From positions 25,476,167-25,540,166 of the forward strand of contig NC_092018.1 in NCBI RefSeq assembly GCF_042242105.1: 64,000 nucleotides of DNA, read 5' to 3'. Below the pieces are notes generated by a model. That model saw nothing but the letters and a program-made list of their open reading frames with translations. It had not been told where the DNA came from and ran no database searches. Positions 30,814-49,614 of this stretch are shown piece by piece. The position numbers were made by a program, and so were the translations under genes. The number at the start of each line of letters is the position of its first letter. Position 1 is the stretch's first letter. Source of the stretch: Pempheris klunzingeri. Taxonomy: Eukaryota > Chordata > Actinopteri > Acropomatiformes > Pempheridae.

Positions 30814-31239
30814 AAACGATAGTTAGGTGGCCAAACGGAGACAGTCGTGTCATATTTATCGGTAAGTATTTCCCGAATAAACTGTTAACAAGGTAGCTGA
30901 GCATTTCTGCGGACGCAAAGGTCTGTGCAAACTGGTGGTCGTTTGCTAGCATGTTAGCATTGATGTTAACGTTACCAGGGGCCCGCTGTGCAACTGGGGG
31001 CTGAACAGATGCGCTAAAACTCTCCTTTTCATCTCACGATAAATTTGGCTTTATTTGAATTTACATAAAGGTTGCTCATATTGCCAAGCAGGAGGACCTT
31101 TATGTTAGTTTGTCTAAGTTTGCGGCTACATAACGTTATTAGTAGTGGTAGCACGTTAAATATCCTGTCATATTACGCTTTTAGTCAGGAAGTTGCACTG
31201 ACTAACTCTGTTAACTCTCATTGATCCTTTTTTTTCTAG

Positions 31240-31520
31240 CTCCCAGAAGATACCAGTGGAGGATGAACAGTGCCTAGATCCCATATTAAGCTGAATGCAT
31301 TGTGATTTCCAATAATTGAGACAGTTATTCTGAAAAGCTGTCTACATTAATGAAAAGAACAATGTAGTCAGCTTAGCATTTTCACCTCTGGTACGTGGTC
31401 TATGCAGGGATGTGCTTCTGCATGCATTCTGGGTGTAGATAAGAAGAAAGTTTCTCAACAAGTCAGATTTTAGAATAAATTATTAGTCTGTATACATTGT
31501 AGTGTGTATTGTAGAAAAAA
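31240..31520 (+). other. dgcr8: dgcr8 5' UTR segment of exon 2
   Basis: The acceptor TTTTTTCTAG ends at 31239 and follows the donor TATCG|GTAAGT at 30861/30862. The segment contains short AUG frames and the mir-3618-like hairpin before the start codon at 31521. Confidence 0.7.
31335..31374 (+). ncRNA. mir3618: mir-3618-like hairpin in dgcr8 5' UTR (Microprocessor target)
   Basis: Bases 31339-31360 agree with the human miR-3618 sequence, as I know it, at 21 of 22 positions. The arms AAGCTG-T-CTACATT (31335-31348) and AATGTAG-T-CAGCTT (31361-31374) pair perfectly except for one T-T mismatch, closing a 12-nt loop. In mammals the equivalent hairpin in DGCR8 mRNA is cut by Drosha-DGCR8, which lowers DGCR8 levels. 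Whether a stable small RNA accumulates in fish is unknown; the main role is probably mRNA cleavage. Confidence 0.85.
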
Positions 31521-34500
31521 ATGGAGATAGATGATGTTCTACCCCCTCTCCCCTTGGAGCCACCTGATGATTTTGGCCAAGATGAGGGCAGAGCACCTCC
31601 ACCACCTCCCCTGCAAACGTCCAGTGACGCAGAGGTAATGGACGTTAGCTCTGGTGGTGATGGATATACATACACCCCAGGGGACGGGGAAGCCCAGCCA
31701 CAACAGCCCCTCAGCATGGGCTCAATAACTTTCTGTAGCCACCTCTCAGATGAGGCCAATCCCAGCCCACCGTGCCCCAGAACAGCCCGCCACGCTCCCC
31801 CGGTCACCAAGTTTCTACCAGACCTCAAGCTGCTCAGAGACGTTAAGATCAGTGTAAGCTTCACTGAAAGCAGCAGTAGCAAAGACAGGAAGGTTTTGTA
31901 CACAGGTGAGGGGCAGGAGGGAGGAAGTGATGACGGCTTAGACAGTCTGAATGGTGAGTTGCATGACTCGACTAGTGAGCAGGAGGTAGCTGAGGGTAGC
32001 TCTGGTGCAGGAAACATAGCAGGCAGAAGTTCAGAGGAGGCTGAGGTAGACCTGGAAAATAAGGTAGAGTTTGCTGTCCTGGATGAGTTGGACGACTTCT
32101 ACGAGAACTTCCTGGATCATGACGATGGGGAGCATGGCGGCTTTAAGTCTGAGGTCATAGTTCAGCAGGAGCAAGCAGATGACGAGGCCGTGACATACTC
32201 CTATGAGGTACGTGTGTTCTCCTGTCTGCCGTCGTCATTATCAGCTACACGCCCAGTTTTTCCTTACTGTCGACCAGAAATAATTAACGCCGAATACAAC
32301 CTATACAGTACAGTCAGTGCAAAAGAGGGTCTCCCCTGTGATTTCAGTTCTGCATTTTAACAGCAGTGGTGCAGACACGGTGTCAAAAAAGCCCAAGTTT
32401 CTCCACAGAAAATGATGGCTGCTGTAAATTGACTGAAGTCCAAACAAAATGATTAAAGCTGCGCTGTATTATGGATTATTCTCACTGCACTCACAACCCA
32501 CGAAAGCCTGCATAATCTTTTTTAACAATGCAGTTTTTAGCAGGAACACAACCTAATGGACGGATCGTTGGTGGTTTTCCAAATTCCAAGAGACCACACA
32601 TCAGTACAGCATGTTGTATCTTATGCCAAAGAGGATGCTGCTAATTAACTATCTCCCTAGTTTCAGGTTACGCTTTTTTTAAAAAAAAAAACAAAAATAA
32701 ACTTCCTAGTTGTATGAAGCCATGCATGTTAATTACACCTCTACCCAAACACAGTTCACCAGAAATGACCCTTTTGGAAAAACTCAATAGCCACCTCTCA
32801 GAAAATAGTACAAAACAGGATTTTGGTAGGAAAATCGGCTATTTGGTTTTTCTTTGAGTGTCCTCGCAAATACAGGCTGTTTATAGATATTCTATTGGCT
32901 GCAGAGAATGATAGCATACACATGGTTAACTGTGAATTAGAAGGAAAAGCACAGATAGAACTAAATCAAAACACCAATAAAAATGACTGTTGTGATCATT
33001 TGTTGATTTTTACACTGCATTGCTAGAGACCTTTTTCTGCATCGTTAAGCTGGACTGGTAAGGCAGGATCCAATGTTCCATTAAAGCAGCACAAGTTTAA
33101 ATAAATGTTTGTTTTTGTTTATTTCTTTGTTTTTATCACTGAAATGATAAATGAGATGCTGGAAGAGGTTAGTGCCATTTTTAATTTCTCCATTAAACAC
33201 AGGCTCTCCCTTTGACACAAAAGTAATCAACTGTAATAACAAGGGAGGAATCAAAACTGCTAAAAATGTGCCATTTAATTTTTAGTAGGAGTTAATATAC
33301 AATCAGTAATATCTGTTCAGAAGTATTTTACTCATGAAAGCAGATATGATAATTTTTCCTGAATTGTTGTAGACTGCTGTGTGGTTTTGTTTGTTTCTCT
33401 GCACCAGCTGTTCACTTTATGGCACAAAGCTGCTTCTCAGGCAAAGCACTCAAAAACTCCCTTAAAGTGGTGACCCACCCTTGTCTTCCGGCCTTAACCA
33501 TTGACTCTTCCAGGAGGAGTTTGACAATGATGTCGATGCTCTGCTGGAGGAGGGCATGCCGGTCCCAAAAAAGATGCGTCCGGCAGAAGACAAATACGGT
33601 GGGGACAGTGATCATCAGTCAGATGGCGAAGGAGGTGTTCAGCCCATGATGACCAAAATTAAGACTGTCCTGAAGAGTGAGTGGTGGAGCTGTCTGTTTC
33701 GGGGGCAATATCAAGGAGCTTGCGATAGAATGTGTTTTCAGTACTATTGGACACAATAAACCATATTTTAAACAGTATCTGCTACGTTTGTTTTACATCA
33801 GTGTAATTTGTATGCAAAGTATGCTGTGTGTTGTACTGCTCTGAAATAGCGTCACAATCTAAAAGCACTCGCTGCCAGGGAGGTTTTTGACATGTACACA
33901 CACGGTGGTGAGATGTAAAACACCGCATGCAAGGACTCAGTAGACTAATCGGGTTCAAAATTATAGTTGAACAAGTAAACATGAGAATTCAAATGGCACT
34001 GTCTTCACTACGTTCAAAGGAGCTCAGTGTTCAAAATATTATTATAATATAATATAATATATTATTCATAGTTAAAGGTGTCTTACCTAAACTTCAAAAT
34101 GCTGTGATACTTCCTTAATCCAGCAAGGTGGAGGTAGAGCAGCAGCTCCTTTTGGGTAGTGTAATGTTTATTTACTGTTTGGTGACAAAAAGTTGAGGTT
34201 CTGTAAGGTTGGTCCTAAACCTGATTTTCATATCTTTTTATGATTTAAATTAAGATGGTTTTTAATATTTATTCCAAGCCTGAGGTTAATTGTTGCCCAT
34301 TGTGAGTGTCTCTTGACTGCTTGTCACATGATTGGCCTTTAATAATTATAGAACAGTTCACCACATAATGTAATGGTGTAATGATTAGTGCCTGCGTTGA
34401 CATTTTGCCCTGTGCCAGGTCGGGGGCGTCCACCCACTGAGCCTTTACCTGATGGATGGATCATGACATTCCATAACTCAGGCATTCCAGTCTACCTGCA

Positions 34501-37500
34501 CAGAGAGACCAGAGTGGTTACCTGGTCCAGACCCTACTTCCTTGGGACCGGCAGTATTAGGGTAAGCTGCAACACAAGTGTCATGTCTAATTAACCTGCC
34601 ATACCACTAACTGACAGTACTGCCCAAGCATTTTGTTACAACTCTTGGTTGTCTTTTTGATGCAGAAACATGACCCTCCTACCAGCAGCATCCCTTGCCT
34701 ACACTACAAGAAAATGAAGGAACAGGAGGAGAAGGAGCTTAATGGGGAGGTGACAACTAACGCACACCTGTCTCCAGCCAAACCTGGTGAGGAGCCCAAC
34801 GGTGAGGAGAGAGCAGGCACGTCAAAGGTTACGGCTGAGGAGCAGGACGGCATGCCACCCTCCAGTCTGGCTGACGGTGTTCCAGATGGAGAGGGCACCT
34901 CGAATAACATCCTGCAGACTAAGGAGCCCCAGCCCTTTGACACTGCCCAAGGAGCCTTAGGACAAGTCAAGGCCAAGGTGGAGGTCTGCAAGGACGAGTC
35001 CATGCGTAAGGATTTTTCATCGTGCATTGTCAGTGATGCGTTTGAAAGCGTTTTGATCATTGTGTGTTTGCTGCTGTAAGAATTCTGGACGAAGCTGCCT
35101 TTCATGAAGTGATCTTGACTCAAAACTTCCTCACAGATCTTGAAGACTTCCGTGTGTACCTGGAGAAATGCTTTGACTTTGAGCAAGTTACTGTGAAGAA
35201 GTTTCGTACCTGGGCAGAGCGAAGGCAGTTCAACAGAGACATGAAAAGGAAGCAGGCAGAGTCAGAGAGACCTATCCTGCCTGCCAACCAGAAACTCATC
35301 ACACTGTCAGTCCAAGATGCACCTACTAAGAAAGGTAACACTTATATAGATTCATGGGTTTTCAGAAGAAAACAGTTAATCATTAGTTATCATTGAAAAC
35401 CATGAAAAACAAAACTATCAAGCTATCTGCAATTACATTCCTTTAGACCTACTGCAGTGTAGTTAAAGAAACTTGTTGTAATTCTCCTCTTTATATCTTT
35501 TTGCAAAAAGGGTGTAAGTTAAGTAGAGTTCAAATGTACTAAACTTTAAAACATTTCTGATTATGACACCTATACTGTAAGTGTTTGAAGTCCTTTTTAA
35601 GTGTATTGTTTGTTGATGTATTTCAATGTTTCTGTTTTAACAGAGTTTGTCATCAACCCTAATGGAAAGTCTGAAGTTTGCATCTTGCATGAATATATGC
35701 AACGTGTCCTAAAGGTTCGACCTGTTTACAACTTTTTTGAATGTGGTAAGTTCCTCCTTTTAATTGTTCTGAGGTATTTTAACTCCTATGCCACCATTGC
35801 CTTGTCAGGAATAAATCGTTTAAGAAAAAAAGTTACCAAGGTGTCTGAAGAGAGGAGATCTACACAATATGTACTACATTCTGTCGTCTACAGCTTAGTA
35901 CACATCACATTGCTGTTACCTCCCTACCTCCTGCTTTTCAAGTATGTTGTTGAGTGTGTAGTGTGGTGCAAGATATTCATAATAAAGCCAACTGATGTCT
36001 GTTTGTGTACCCCACAGAGAACCCAAGTGAACCCTTTGGAGCGTCTGTCATTATAGATGGAGTGACGTACGGCACAGGAACTGCAAGCAGTAAAAAACTT
36101 GCCAAGAATAAAGCTGGTAGATTCTATTATTTATTATTACTTGCATTGTGATAGGTTAGTTTGCATATTTCATGAATGAATATACACTGTACTAGTAACA
36201 GTGCGATTAAAGTGAGGTCTTCTGGAGGAATTTTGAAATGAACTCAAACTTGCACATATTTTGTTACAGTTGTGAGGTTGTTGTAAATTTACAGCATTTA
36301 AATCAGTTGAAAGGTTTTCATAAGGAACTATGATCCTGGGGTATTCTAATCAAACTGTTTTATACATCATACTGGAGGTGGGTGGCACTGCCTGGAATGT
36401 GATTTTATATTGGTTACCACAAGAATGCTAATAAGTTGAAGTCCACCCACTTAATTTCCTCTCATAACAGTCATTTATTTTTGTTGCACCTTCCTAGATA
36501 AAGAGTACAACCTATATTCTTACTATATACAGTAGAAAGTTACACTGGTAAATGAGTGATATAATACGTCACCAGCTCTGCTCTCACTTGTAATCTGGTG
36601 TAAACTTCAGCTCGAGCCACACTGGAAATCCTCATCCCTGACTTTGTGAAGCAGACCTCAGAGGAGAAGCCTGTGGAGGGCGATGAACTGGAGGTACTTC
36701 TTTCTTCCTATGTTCTTACCTGGATCTTTTTCAGTGAAGTGGAATACAGTAAGCTTAAGTTCACGGGCAGGTAACAGGAGTTCTCACAACGAGATCTGCT
36801 GCTGGAAGTAGAATATGTGTCCCTTGAAATTTTAATGCACCTTTTTAGAATTGAAGTTAACAGTCCATGCACTCTGCTCCACAGTATTTTAATCATATCA
36901 GTATAGAAGACTCGAGAGTTTATGAGCTGACCAACAAAGCAGGACTACTTTCGCCATATCAGATTCTTCATGAGTGCCTTAAAAGGTAAGGGATGATGCA
37001 AAACGTCACCAATAAAGTCCATTTCTGATTATTTTTGTTTGTGTAATTGTTTTAAGTGTTTATCTAATGTTGTAATTATTATGGTATCATTGATATGTCC
37101 GTCTTTGTGAGTAGCATAAAACACACCCAAAAATACCATACATATTTCCCATAGTTAAAGTGGGTGACAGTTCTAGTTTGTCAGTAGAATCCCACACAAA
37201 TGCCATAATCACTGTTATTGTTTTACAGTACGGTCGTCCACATTAATGTTCCAAGTAATTTGTAGTGAATTAGTTATTCTTTAAGTTTTTGTGTGTCATT
37301 ATTTTACATATGTTCATATCAGAGATATAATAAGATGACGTCTCTGTTCTCTTGTGTTGATAAAGACTGTCTGCTTGTTGTTTGCCTTGCTGGGCAGAAC
37401 CTGTGCTTGTTGGCAGTGCCTTTAATGCTCTCACACAACCTGTCACGACAACTTTGCCATCTTTCACTGTTGCTGTTGCTTAAACAGCCTGTCTTCGCAC

Positions 37501-38604
37501 TGTTGCCAAGGAGGACAGCGTGCCAGGTTGCAGATATATATATGCATATATTGAAAATGTACTGTTTCATCTCTCGTGTAGAAACCATGGAATGGGAGAC
37601 ACCAGCATTAAATTTGAGGTGATCCCAGGGAAAAACCAGAAGAGTGAATATGTGATGACTTGTGGGAAGCATACTGTGCGTGGCTGGTGTAAGTAGGCTG
37701 TAATCCTCTTCTACCCACACGGTGAGACTGATGTGTAGAGCTGAGGAGAGTGTTTATTTCAAGGAACATGTCTTTTACAGAAGAGTAACTTACTTAATTG
37801 TAGCTTTCAATTGCATGTTTTCTACATTTGCTACCAGGCAAGAATAAGAGGGTCGGAAAACAACTAGCATCTCAGAAGATCTTGCAGATGCTTCATCCAC
37901 ATGTCAAGAACTGGGGCTCACTGCTGCGCATGTACGGCAGAGAGAGCAATAAGATGGTCAAGAAGGTGAGTGTCCTCTTAAGCACTTCAGCAATGCAAAG
38001 CTTCTGTGATTAAGGAGAACTGTGGAAAGCAAAAGTTTGGCTTCATTTATCTTTTTCTATAAATACATAGCATCTGATTTAAAGTGCATTCTAATACACA
38101 CATTGAGTCAAACTCTAAAGGCCTAAAAAAGAGTCAGCAGTTTTCAGGCCAGAACAACCAGTGAAATGTGGTGATATTCTAGTAATAAAGATGGTCCTCC
38201 ATTGCAGGCACATCTCCCTGACTTTTAAAACAACTGATCTTTTGCAGGAGAGCTCTGACAAGAGTGTGATCGAGCTCCAGCAGTATGCCAAAAAGAACAA
38301 GCCAAACCTTCATATCTTGAATAAACTGCAAGAAGAAATGAGGAAACTGGCCACACAGAGGGTGAGGACTCCTCTCTCATTTTATAATGTCAGCTCTAAC
38401 AAGTTAACATTCATCCTGACATCGGCGACCCCCATCCCGTTAAGCCTTTTAGCAGATTTGCACTGTTTTCAGAATGCCCTCCTCATTATTATGGGAACTT
38501 CATTATTTTTTCTGTACCAGGAGGAGACCAGGAAGAAACCCAAGATGACCATAATGGAGTCTGCCCAACCAGGAAGTGAACCACTCTGCACTGTTGACGT
38601 TTAA
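31521..38604 (+). CDS. dgcr8: DGCR8, Microprocessor complex RNA-binding subunit
   Basis: The 782-residue protein is encoded by 13 exons: 31521-32207, 33514-33676, 34419-34561, 34666-35005, 35137-35334, 35644-35745, 36018-36116, 36611-36693, 36885-36985, 37582-37688, 37838-37965, 38248-38361 and 38521-38604. Phases agree throughout and the stop is TAA. The human protein has 773 residues. DGCR8 binds primary microRNA hairpins and positions Drosha in the nucleus. Domains are an acidic N-terminus, a WW-containing dimerisation and haem-binding region (about 292-360, with the haem-ligand cysteine in IPCLHY at 342), dsRBD1 (about 512-580), dsRBD2 (about 628-695) and a Drosha-binding C-terminal tail ending EPLCTVDV. 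The second half is nearly identical to mammals as I recall it; residues 120-230 diverge most. Exon 1 also encodes the mir-1306 hairpin. Confidence 0.97.
31598..31660 (+). ncRNA. mir1306: mir-1306 hairpin inside dgcr8 coding exon
   Basis: Bases 31602-31623 are identical to human miR-1306-5p, as I know it, and 31642-31659 match miR-1306-3p at 17 of 18 positions. AACGTCCA (31616-31623) pairs with TGGACGTT (31639-31646) around a 15-nt loop, and the CCACC/GGTGG arms pair below internal loops. The same bases code for DGCR8 residues about 27-47. In mammals Microprocessor cleaves this hairpin just after the start codon. Confidence 0.88.
32208..33513 (+). other. dgcr8: dgcr8 first coding intron (1.3 kb)
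   Basis: AT-rich intron with no recognisable feature. The frame reads through the donor to a stop at 32358-32360, so retention would give a truncated 279-residue product lacking both dsRBDs. Confidence 0.7.
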
Positions 38605-48400: not shown

Positions 48401-49614
48401 ACCCCATCCAGGGTATATACTCGTATATCTGCCTTCATGTGTTAACCTCACCCCCCCCCTTGTAAACCACAGTTGTACCCACGATGGAGCTGAAGCCCAA
48501 CGCTGGCAGTGACAGGGCATGGGTGTGGAACACACTAGCAGATTACGCTGACGAATGCCCCAAACCTGAACTCCTGGCAATACGCTTTTTAAATGCAGAA
48601 AGTAAGTATTAATACATCTAAACCAATATCACACATGAAAGGTGTTTGTCTCTTCAGGGTGACTACTATATAGCCCAAACAGCTGTAAGAAAACCACTTT
48701 GTCCAAGTTTTGGGTAACAACATCCCACCCAGCAGCTCTTCTTACTGCAGCCTCATTGGCCACCGTACAATAGCATGGTGATGTGAATGCATGCCAACTC
48801 TCTGTTCCATTTGCAGATGCTCAGAAGTTCAAGGTGAAGTTTGATGAGTGTAAGGGGGAGGCCAGAAAAATTCTAGAGGGAACAGGTATGTAAAACTTTG
48901 AACAAGTTTGTTTGAAATGTTTGCTACTTCAGTAAGAAAGTGCCTTGGTTTATTATTTGCTGTAATCTGTGTTACATGGTAACACAGCAGTATTCATTAT
49001 TTTCAGAGTTGCCAACACTGTTTTGCTCGGGTTTGAGTTATTTGTGTAAAGCTGCCTTTTAAATTAAATTCAGTCTGGAGGTAACATTGCGATCTTGTAT
49101 GAGTCTGCAGACTCACTCTGTTCTTCGCTGCTCACTCCAGCCTGGAACTTTTTCTGTCTGCTACATGAACATGCAGAATGTAACACTTTACTGGCTTTCT
49201 AAAAGGCTGGTGTCAATATGTTCTGCTACATTACAGTTCACACATTAATAATATTCTAATGTGCTCACATTAGCACAAGGCCCCACTGTCCAGCTCAAAT
49301 TCTAAATGTAGAGGCTGTAGGAAGAGGTGGGATATCCCCAAGACAGTGAGCTGAGATGCAAAGTGAAAATAGCAGGAATGTTTTCTCTTAAGACAAACTT
49401 GCATTCTAGGCAAGCTGACTTACATAGCTTTTGAGTTGACCGCACACTTCACTGTTTTGCCACAGGCAACACTGATAGCGCAAACAAAGTGGCCGAGAAG
49501 CTGGAGGAGCTGTCCGTAAAAGACAAGGCTTCAGGAGAAAAGAAGGAGGACAAAAAGGAGACTGAGAAGAAAGAAGATGAGAAAAAGGAGGTGAAGGCGG
49601 AGGGGAAGAATTGA
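45489..49614 (+). CDS. ranbp1: RANBP1, Ran-specific GTPase-activating protein (Ran-binding protein 1)
   Basis: Six coding exons: 45489-45503, 47058-47191, 47340-47497, 48473-48601, 48817-48885 and 49466-49614. They give 217 residues ending in TGA; human RANBP1 has about 201. The protein binds Ran-GTP through a single RanBD (about 26-162) and helps RanGAP strip Ran from export complexes in the cytoplasm. The RanBD begins [10 protein letters not shown] and contains [13 protein letters not shown] and [16 protein letters not shown] leucine-rich export signal [11 protein letters not shown] lies at 176-186. The tail is a long Lys/Glu run, longer than in mammals and likely disordered. The first exon codes only MADPK, and intron 1 (1.55 kb) is CG-richer. 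The E2F-like site upstream suggests S-phase expression. Confidence 0.96.
45504..47057 (+). other. ranbp1: ranbp1 intron 1
   Basis: A 1.55-kb intron carrying the downstream flank of the CG-rich promoter region (repeated 'gctaac'-like words, CG pairs up to about 46670). No coding or RNA feature was recognised. Confidence 0.6.

Follow-up and report, generated by a model that had tools for sequence, protein, structure and literature searches.

What keeps the mir-1306 segment of the dgcr8 coding sequence conserved in a fish: the RNA hairpin, the peptide encoded by the same bases, or both? Autoregulation of DGCR8 mRNA by the Microprocessor was reportedly described by Han et al. in 2009. Within the DGCR8 coding sequence, miR-1306 has been characterized as a hairpin both conserved and suboptimal, and the Microprocessor cuts the optimal miR-3618 hairpin and the adjacent miR-1306 hairpin in a SAFB2- or ERH-dependent manner, by which DGCR8 is lowered (PMC13041536). 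The original prediction, made from the letters of a 64,000-nucleotide stretch of Pempheris klunzingeri contig NC_092018.1 (the window), had placed a mir-1306 hairpin on dgcr8 codons and proposed a double constraint, on protein and RNA structure at once.

The host gene is recognized by the frame at 31521-32207, whose translation matched the human DGCR8 chain 6lxd_B with an E value of 8.7e-48. The match to this full-length human protein starts at residue 25 of the exon's protein, and residues 1-24 were left unaligned by phmmer. Further parts of dgcr8 are found at 35046-35393 (human chain residues 432-502, E 3.4e-35) and at 38119-38601 (E 2.3e-22). The limits of the exon, 31240-32207, were inferred from splice-like sequence signals alone, namely the splice-acceptor-like TTTTTTTTCTAG, which ends at 31239 just before the exon, and GAG/GTACGT at the exon end, 32207. 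Because of the acceptor-like sequence ending at 31239, the exon that carries both hairpins may not be the first exon of the gene; in the excerpt of a paper on pig (PMC6523565), the first exon is given as the host of miR-1306. The features of this region are as follows.

31240..32207, plus strand: dgcr8 exon with part of the 5' UTR, the start codon and the first 229 codons, from splice-like signals and the DGCR8 match
31287..31375, plus strand: mir-3618 hairpin in the 5' UTR part of the dgcr8 exon, from Rfam RF04152
31521..31523, plus strand: dgcr8 start codon, the first ATG of the open frame matching DGCR8
31598..31664, plus strand: mir-1306 pri-miRNA hairpin within the coding sequence, codons 26-48, from the RF01014 match and pairing
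31602..31623, plus strand: miR-1306-5p sequence, 22/22 identity
31642..31659, plus strand: miR-1306-3p sequence (18 nt), 17/18 identity
31776..31868, plus strand: codons 86-116, matching the 31-residue DGCR8 peptide of PDB 7cnc (7cnc_B, E 1.6e-10)

The window was screened with 4227 Rfam families under their curated cut-offs, and three families scored above them: mir-3618, mir-1306 and SNORA77. The mir-1306 family (RF01014) matched at 31595-31666 on the plus strand, where the whole model (positions 1-72 of 72) aligns and scores 102.0 bits, above the gathering score of 70 (E 3.8e-22). Each of the 18 base pairs assigned by Rfam is formed by standard partners here, and four extra basal pairs are possible between 31598-31601 and 31661-31664 (UCCA/UGGA). 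The predicted overlap with the dgcr8 coding sequence is thereby confirmed, in a frame that matches 6lxd_B. The hairpin had been placed at 31598-31660; its start stands, whereas its end falls short, as the stem with the basal pairs reaches 31664. The arms span codons 28-47, in keeping with the predicted residues 27-47 or so.

The arm identities that had been claimed (22/22 for 5p, 17/18 for 3p) were reproduced, with mature queries of which the 5p sequence and the 3p core are also printed in the excerpt of PMC3314633. There, an identical miR-1306-5p is printed for rat and pig, and the rat, mouse and pig 3p sequences include the 18 nucleotides used as the 3p query. On either strand of the window, the second-best site has 6 mismatches for 5p and 4 for 3p, and a query of the species' own 646-Mb genome with mir-1306 returned a single match, the present locus (one candidate scored). 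The match is real and far beyond chance. The minus-strand Rfam scores of mir-3618 and mir-1306 (59.5 and 35.5 bits) lie below the cut-offs of 99 and 70; an antisense reading was rejected, these scores being the mirror image of near-palindromic stems.

The only 3p mismatch is at 31647, where A replaces the G of the Rfam consensus and of rat; the position is unpaired in the Rfam structure, and the change turns codon 43 into Ser instead of Gly. No occurrence of this fish 3p-arm variant was found in the 12 papers searched for it. Together with three differences at the model ends, it makes up the four departures from the Rfam consensus, which all fall on unpaired model positions (1, 2, 53 and 71), although, with three of the four at model ends, unpaired location alone is weak evidence. 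In sequence, structure, strand and host-gene position the locus otherwise resembles mir-1306 as known, with one difference in placement: the survey PMC3675212 lists human and chicken mir-1306 in the DGCR8 5' UTR, whereas here it lies in the coding frame. Judged by its sequence, mir-1306 in dgcr8 is a well-preserved orthologue of an exon-encoded pri-miRNA that is already known, as is its partner.

That partner, mir-3618, is found about 220 bases upstream of mir-1306; it was absent from the original prediction, though it is part of the known mechanism. RF04152 matched over its full length, within the 5' UTR portion of the exon that holds mir-1306, with 105.9 bits against a cut-off of 99 (E 2.4e-24). 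Over 89 positions, the hairpin differs from the Rfam consensus by 10 substitutions and one inserted base, and the pairs are kept: of 31, three are changed on both sides and retained, one is changed on one side and none is broken. The fold of 31275-31390 has a z score of -6.18, and none of 200 shuffles was as good; by this prediction, the mir-3618 hairpin is strong, unlike that of mir-1306. Seven ATGs lie upstream of the start codon between 31240 and 31520, three of which (31295, 31350 and 31362) open short frames within the mir-3618 hairpin. The layout is that of mammalian DGCR8 mRNA autoregulation: at its 5' end, the mRNA bears two hairpins, mir-3618 (31287-31375) upstream and mir-1306 (31598-31664) in the coding sequence, here within one inferred exon. 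For the fish mRNA, the cleavage known from mammals is predicted from sequence.

Elsewhere in the window, the minus strand carries a trmt2a-like frame near 44 kb, which matches 7ntn_A (tRNA (uracil-5-)-methyltransferase homolog A) at E 1.1e-25. A frame for a DHHC palmitoyltransferase is located near 61 kb. The order dgcr8, trmt2a-like, DHHC presumably corresponds to that of human 22q11.2. The SNORA77 match, at 49107-49235 on the plus strand (55.5 bits against a cut-off of 42), falls between the trmt2a-like and DHHC-like genes, perhaps in a ranbp1 intron, to judge by gene order. In mammals, mir-185 lies near DGCR8; it is absent among the five Rfam matches that the window gives with E values of 0.1 or less, positions 1-31000 included.

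Constraint at the RNA level was assessed by setting codons 26-48 against two references, the Rfam consensus and the precursor given for rat in the excerpt of PMC3314633, the rat comparison being the cleaner one, as the Rfam seed may include fish. At third codon positions, the mir-1306 segment is virtually unchanged relative to mammals: 23 of 23 equal the Rfam consensus and 22 of 23 equal rat, in a stretch where 15 codons are fourfold and seven are two- or threefold degenerate. With codons drawn afresh by the exon's own synonymous usage, about 8 of the 21 same-amino-acid codons would be expected to agree; the probability that all 21 agree by chance is about 10^-9.6, a figure that presumes full saturation and independence, with a usage table that includes the tested codons. 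The single third-base difference from rat is in codon 36 (GAC here, GAT in rat); it lies in the apical stem of two pairs, where pairing is retained as C-G here and U-G in rat. RNA-level constraint on the hairpin segment is supported by this pattern of codons, and with it the RNA part of the proposed double constraint. Among the matches listed from a library with few subscription papers, no title concerned synonymous constraint at the mir-1306 hairpin in teleosts.

These counts bear on the possibility that conservation of the protein or of codon usage alone is at work and that the hairpin is incidental in this fish. Such an account is very improbable, in view of the third bases at codons so free to vary and of a covariance-model score 32 bits above the curated cut-off. 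What speaks for it comes from folding, which alone would not have proved the mir-1306 hairpin. Taken by itself, the hairpin has a folding energy of about -31 kcal/mol, and equally good folds arose in 2 of 200 dinucleotide shuffles of the segment 31580-31680. When codons 26-48 were recoded for the same peptide, 229 of 5000 sequences with usage-weighted codons and 113 of 3000 with permuted codons folded as well, so that the native hairpin is predicted to be only marginally stronger than its synonymous recodings; the codon-permutation test on the exact hairpin gave z scores of -1.83 and -1.92. The second point in favour of an incidental hairpin is that its lower stem is predicted to be improbable in context, with a mean probability of 0.59 in isolation and of 0.00-0.13 in five flanked contexts. 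The drop is due to alternative pairing of the 3p arm with downstream bases; in the same five contexts, the apical helix remains likely to form (0.71-0.98). If forced, the pri-miRNA state is predicted to lie 2.7-3.1 kcal/mol above the free optimum (two contexts). A fold of this moderate strength agrees with the description of miR-1306 as suboptimal in PMC13041536.

The competing structure is a predicted downstream stem at 31651-31690 on the plus strand, in which 31651-31659, within the 3p arm, pair with bases after 31664. A codon-permutation scan of 69 windows, for which the eight lowest values are given, was strongest at codons 31-54 (z -4.45, 1/300), a window that includes this stem. As a candidate switch, the stem is no more than a lead: when codons 49-66 were recoded synonymously, 39 of 400 variants gave a lower-stem probability as low as the native sequence does, so that its competition is not unusual.

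We then consider the protein. Identity to human DGCR8 is 20/23 for residues 26-48, 8/37 for 49-85, 27/31 for 86-116, 9/11 for 117-127, 18/58 for 128-185 and 20/44 for 186-229, and two conserved islands stand out, residues 26-48 and 86-127. The N-terminus had been called fast-changing outside the hairpin; this describes residues 49-85 well and does not hold throughout, as the second island shows. Codons 86-116 of that island match the DGCR8 peptide of 7cnc, which we take to be the ERH-DGCR8 complex, the peptide presumably being the ERH-binding segment. The matching island lies in the same exon as the mir-3618 and mir-1306 hairpins.

The first island ends where the hairpin ends. It differs from human at residues 26, 36 and 43, of which 26 and 43 fall on unpaired RNA positions of mir-1306. 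Residue 36 is Asp here and Gly in human, and this swap must alter 31627, which is paired by Rfam in the two-pair stem beside the loop. On a double constraint proper, DGCR8 residues 26-48 would have a protein function of their own, with the hairpin laid on top. We regard this as rather unlikely. The contrast between 20 of 23 identical residues in the island and 8 of 37 in the next stretch would be expected of it, but the limits of the island are those of the hairpin, and for this reason the separate protein part of the double constraint is not demonstrated. The replacements relative to the Rfam consensus (codons 26, 43 and 49) also sit at unpaired RNA positions, as they would under an RNA rule, but the human change of Asp36 to Gly in the apical stem departs from that rule. 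A Pfam search of the exon's protein gave no family at E up to 0.001, which also counts against a protein function, although such a search has little power for short motifs.

The simplest reading of the island, from these alignments, is that the RNA is conserved and the protein follows; conservation of residues 26-48 may be a by-product of the RNA hairpin. A stricter version has the residues kept only via the hairpin, the protein being a passenger, and has hairpin strength tuned by the competing downstream stem. This combination is conceivable but doubtful. Its passenger half agrees with the evidence, except that the human change of Asp36 to Gly in the two-pair apical stem tells against complete control by the RNA. 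Its tuning half is weak, since recoding of codons 49-66 lowers the probability of the hairpin's lower stem to the same extent in 39 of 400 cases.

It may also be asked whether the locus chiefly makes a functional miRNA that acts on other genes and may be transcribed independently of dgcr8, cleavage of the mRNA then being a side effect. We consider this unlikely, though several reports point toward it. The excerpt of PMC6523565 deals with the regulation of TGFBR2 by miR-1306 in granulosa cells of the pig and claims for miR-1306 a separate promoter, distinct from that of DGCR8; the excerpt of PMC6628503 treats it as a regulator in chicken; and the 5p sequence is identical here, in rat and in pig (PMC3314633). 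Against it stand the low read counts printed for rat (4-28 per sample for 5p and 0-4 for 3p, although arrays show 3p in 5 of 6 samples; PMC3314633) and for tilapia (at most 15 miR-1306-5p reads; PMC4855716), and the fact that miRNA function alone requires no tie to dgcr8. Excerpts on other fish describe a sturgeon small RNA one mismatch from dre-miR-1306 (PMC4266654) and give miR-1306 by name only, with no sequence, in yellowfin seabream (PMC7461063), in medaka (PMC12896521) and in a predicted network in turbot (PMC8301059); it is also listed in a study covering zebrafish, bichir and axolotl (PMC4927183). The fish miRNAs so named may derive from dgcr8.

A miRNA as main product and a role in feedback are compatible and not mutually exclusive. 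The explanation that we favour, as highly probable by analogy with mammals, is that the coding sequence of dgcr8 carries an orthologous mir-1306 hairpin which, together with its partner mir-3618 in the 5' UTR, serves Microprocessor feedback. The two hairpins are both found here, with their sequence and pairing preserved. From the mammalian work, Drosha-DGCR8, when plentiful, would bind the strong mir-3618 hairpin and be handed on to the weak mir-1306 hairpin by cluster assistance involving ERH and SAFB2. The mRNA would be cut, and dgcr8 mRNA would fall until Microprocessor was scarce again; the freed hairpin could also yield miR-1306. The RNA requirement would fix the codons and thereby most of the amino acids.

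Published observations on the mammalian system bear on this explanation. According to the excerpt of PMC3814725, Drosha cleaves stem-loops at the 5' end of Dgcr8 mRNA with "only a twofold effect", and the preferred stem-loop varies with cell type. The excerpt of PMC7160132, citing earlier work, derives both miRNAs from Dgcr8 mRNA by processing and puts mir-1306 at a much higher level than mir-3618, and that of PMC8728216 notes that MirGeneDB 2.1 places "DGCR8 exon-encoded MIR-1306" among non-canonical microRNA genes. The relative levels of the two miRNAs, the differences between cell types and the separate promoter in pig somewhat weaken the feedback explanation. The printed small numbers of reads, the modest folding strength of mir-1306 and its improbable lower stem in context also count against it; the tilapia reads and the sturgeon small RNA count in its favour.

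The dgcr8 codons 26-48 illustrate clearly how an RNA element can hold protein-coding bases in place. The mir-3618 and mir-1306 hairpins known from DGCR8 feedback are both preserved in a fish, mir-3618 with paired changes, and this speaks for an old origin of the arrangement with two hairpins. This arrangement is the one tied to cluster assistance by recent work, and the published picture is not overturned.
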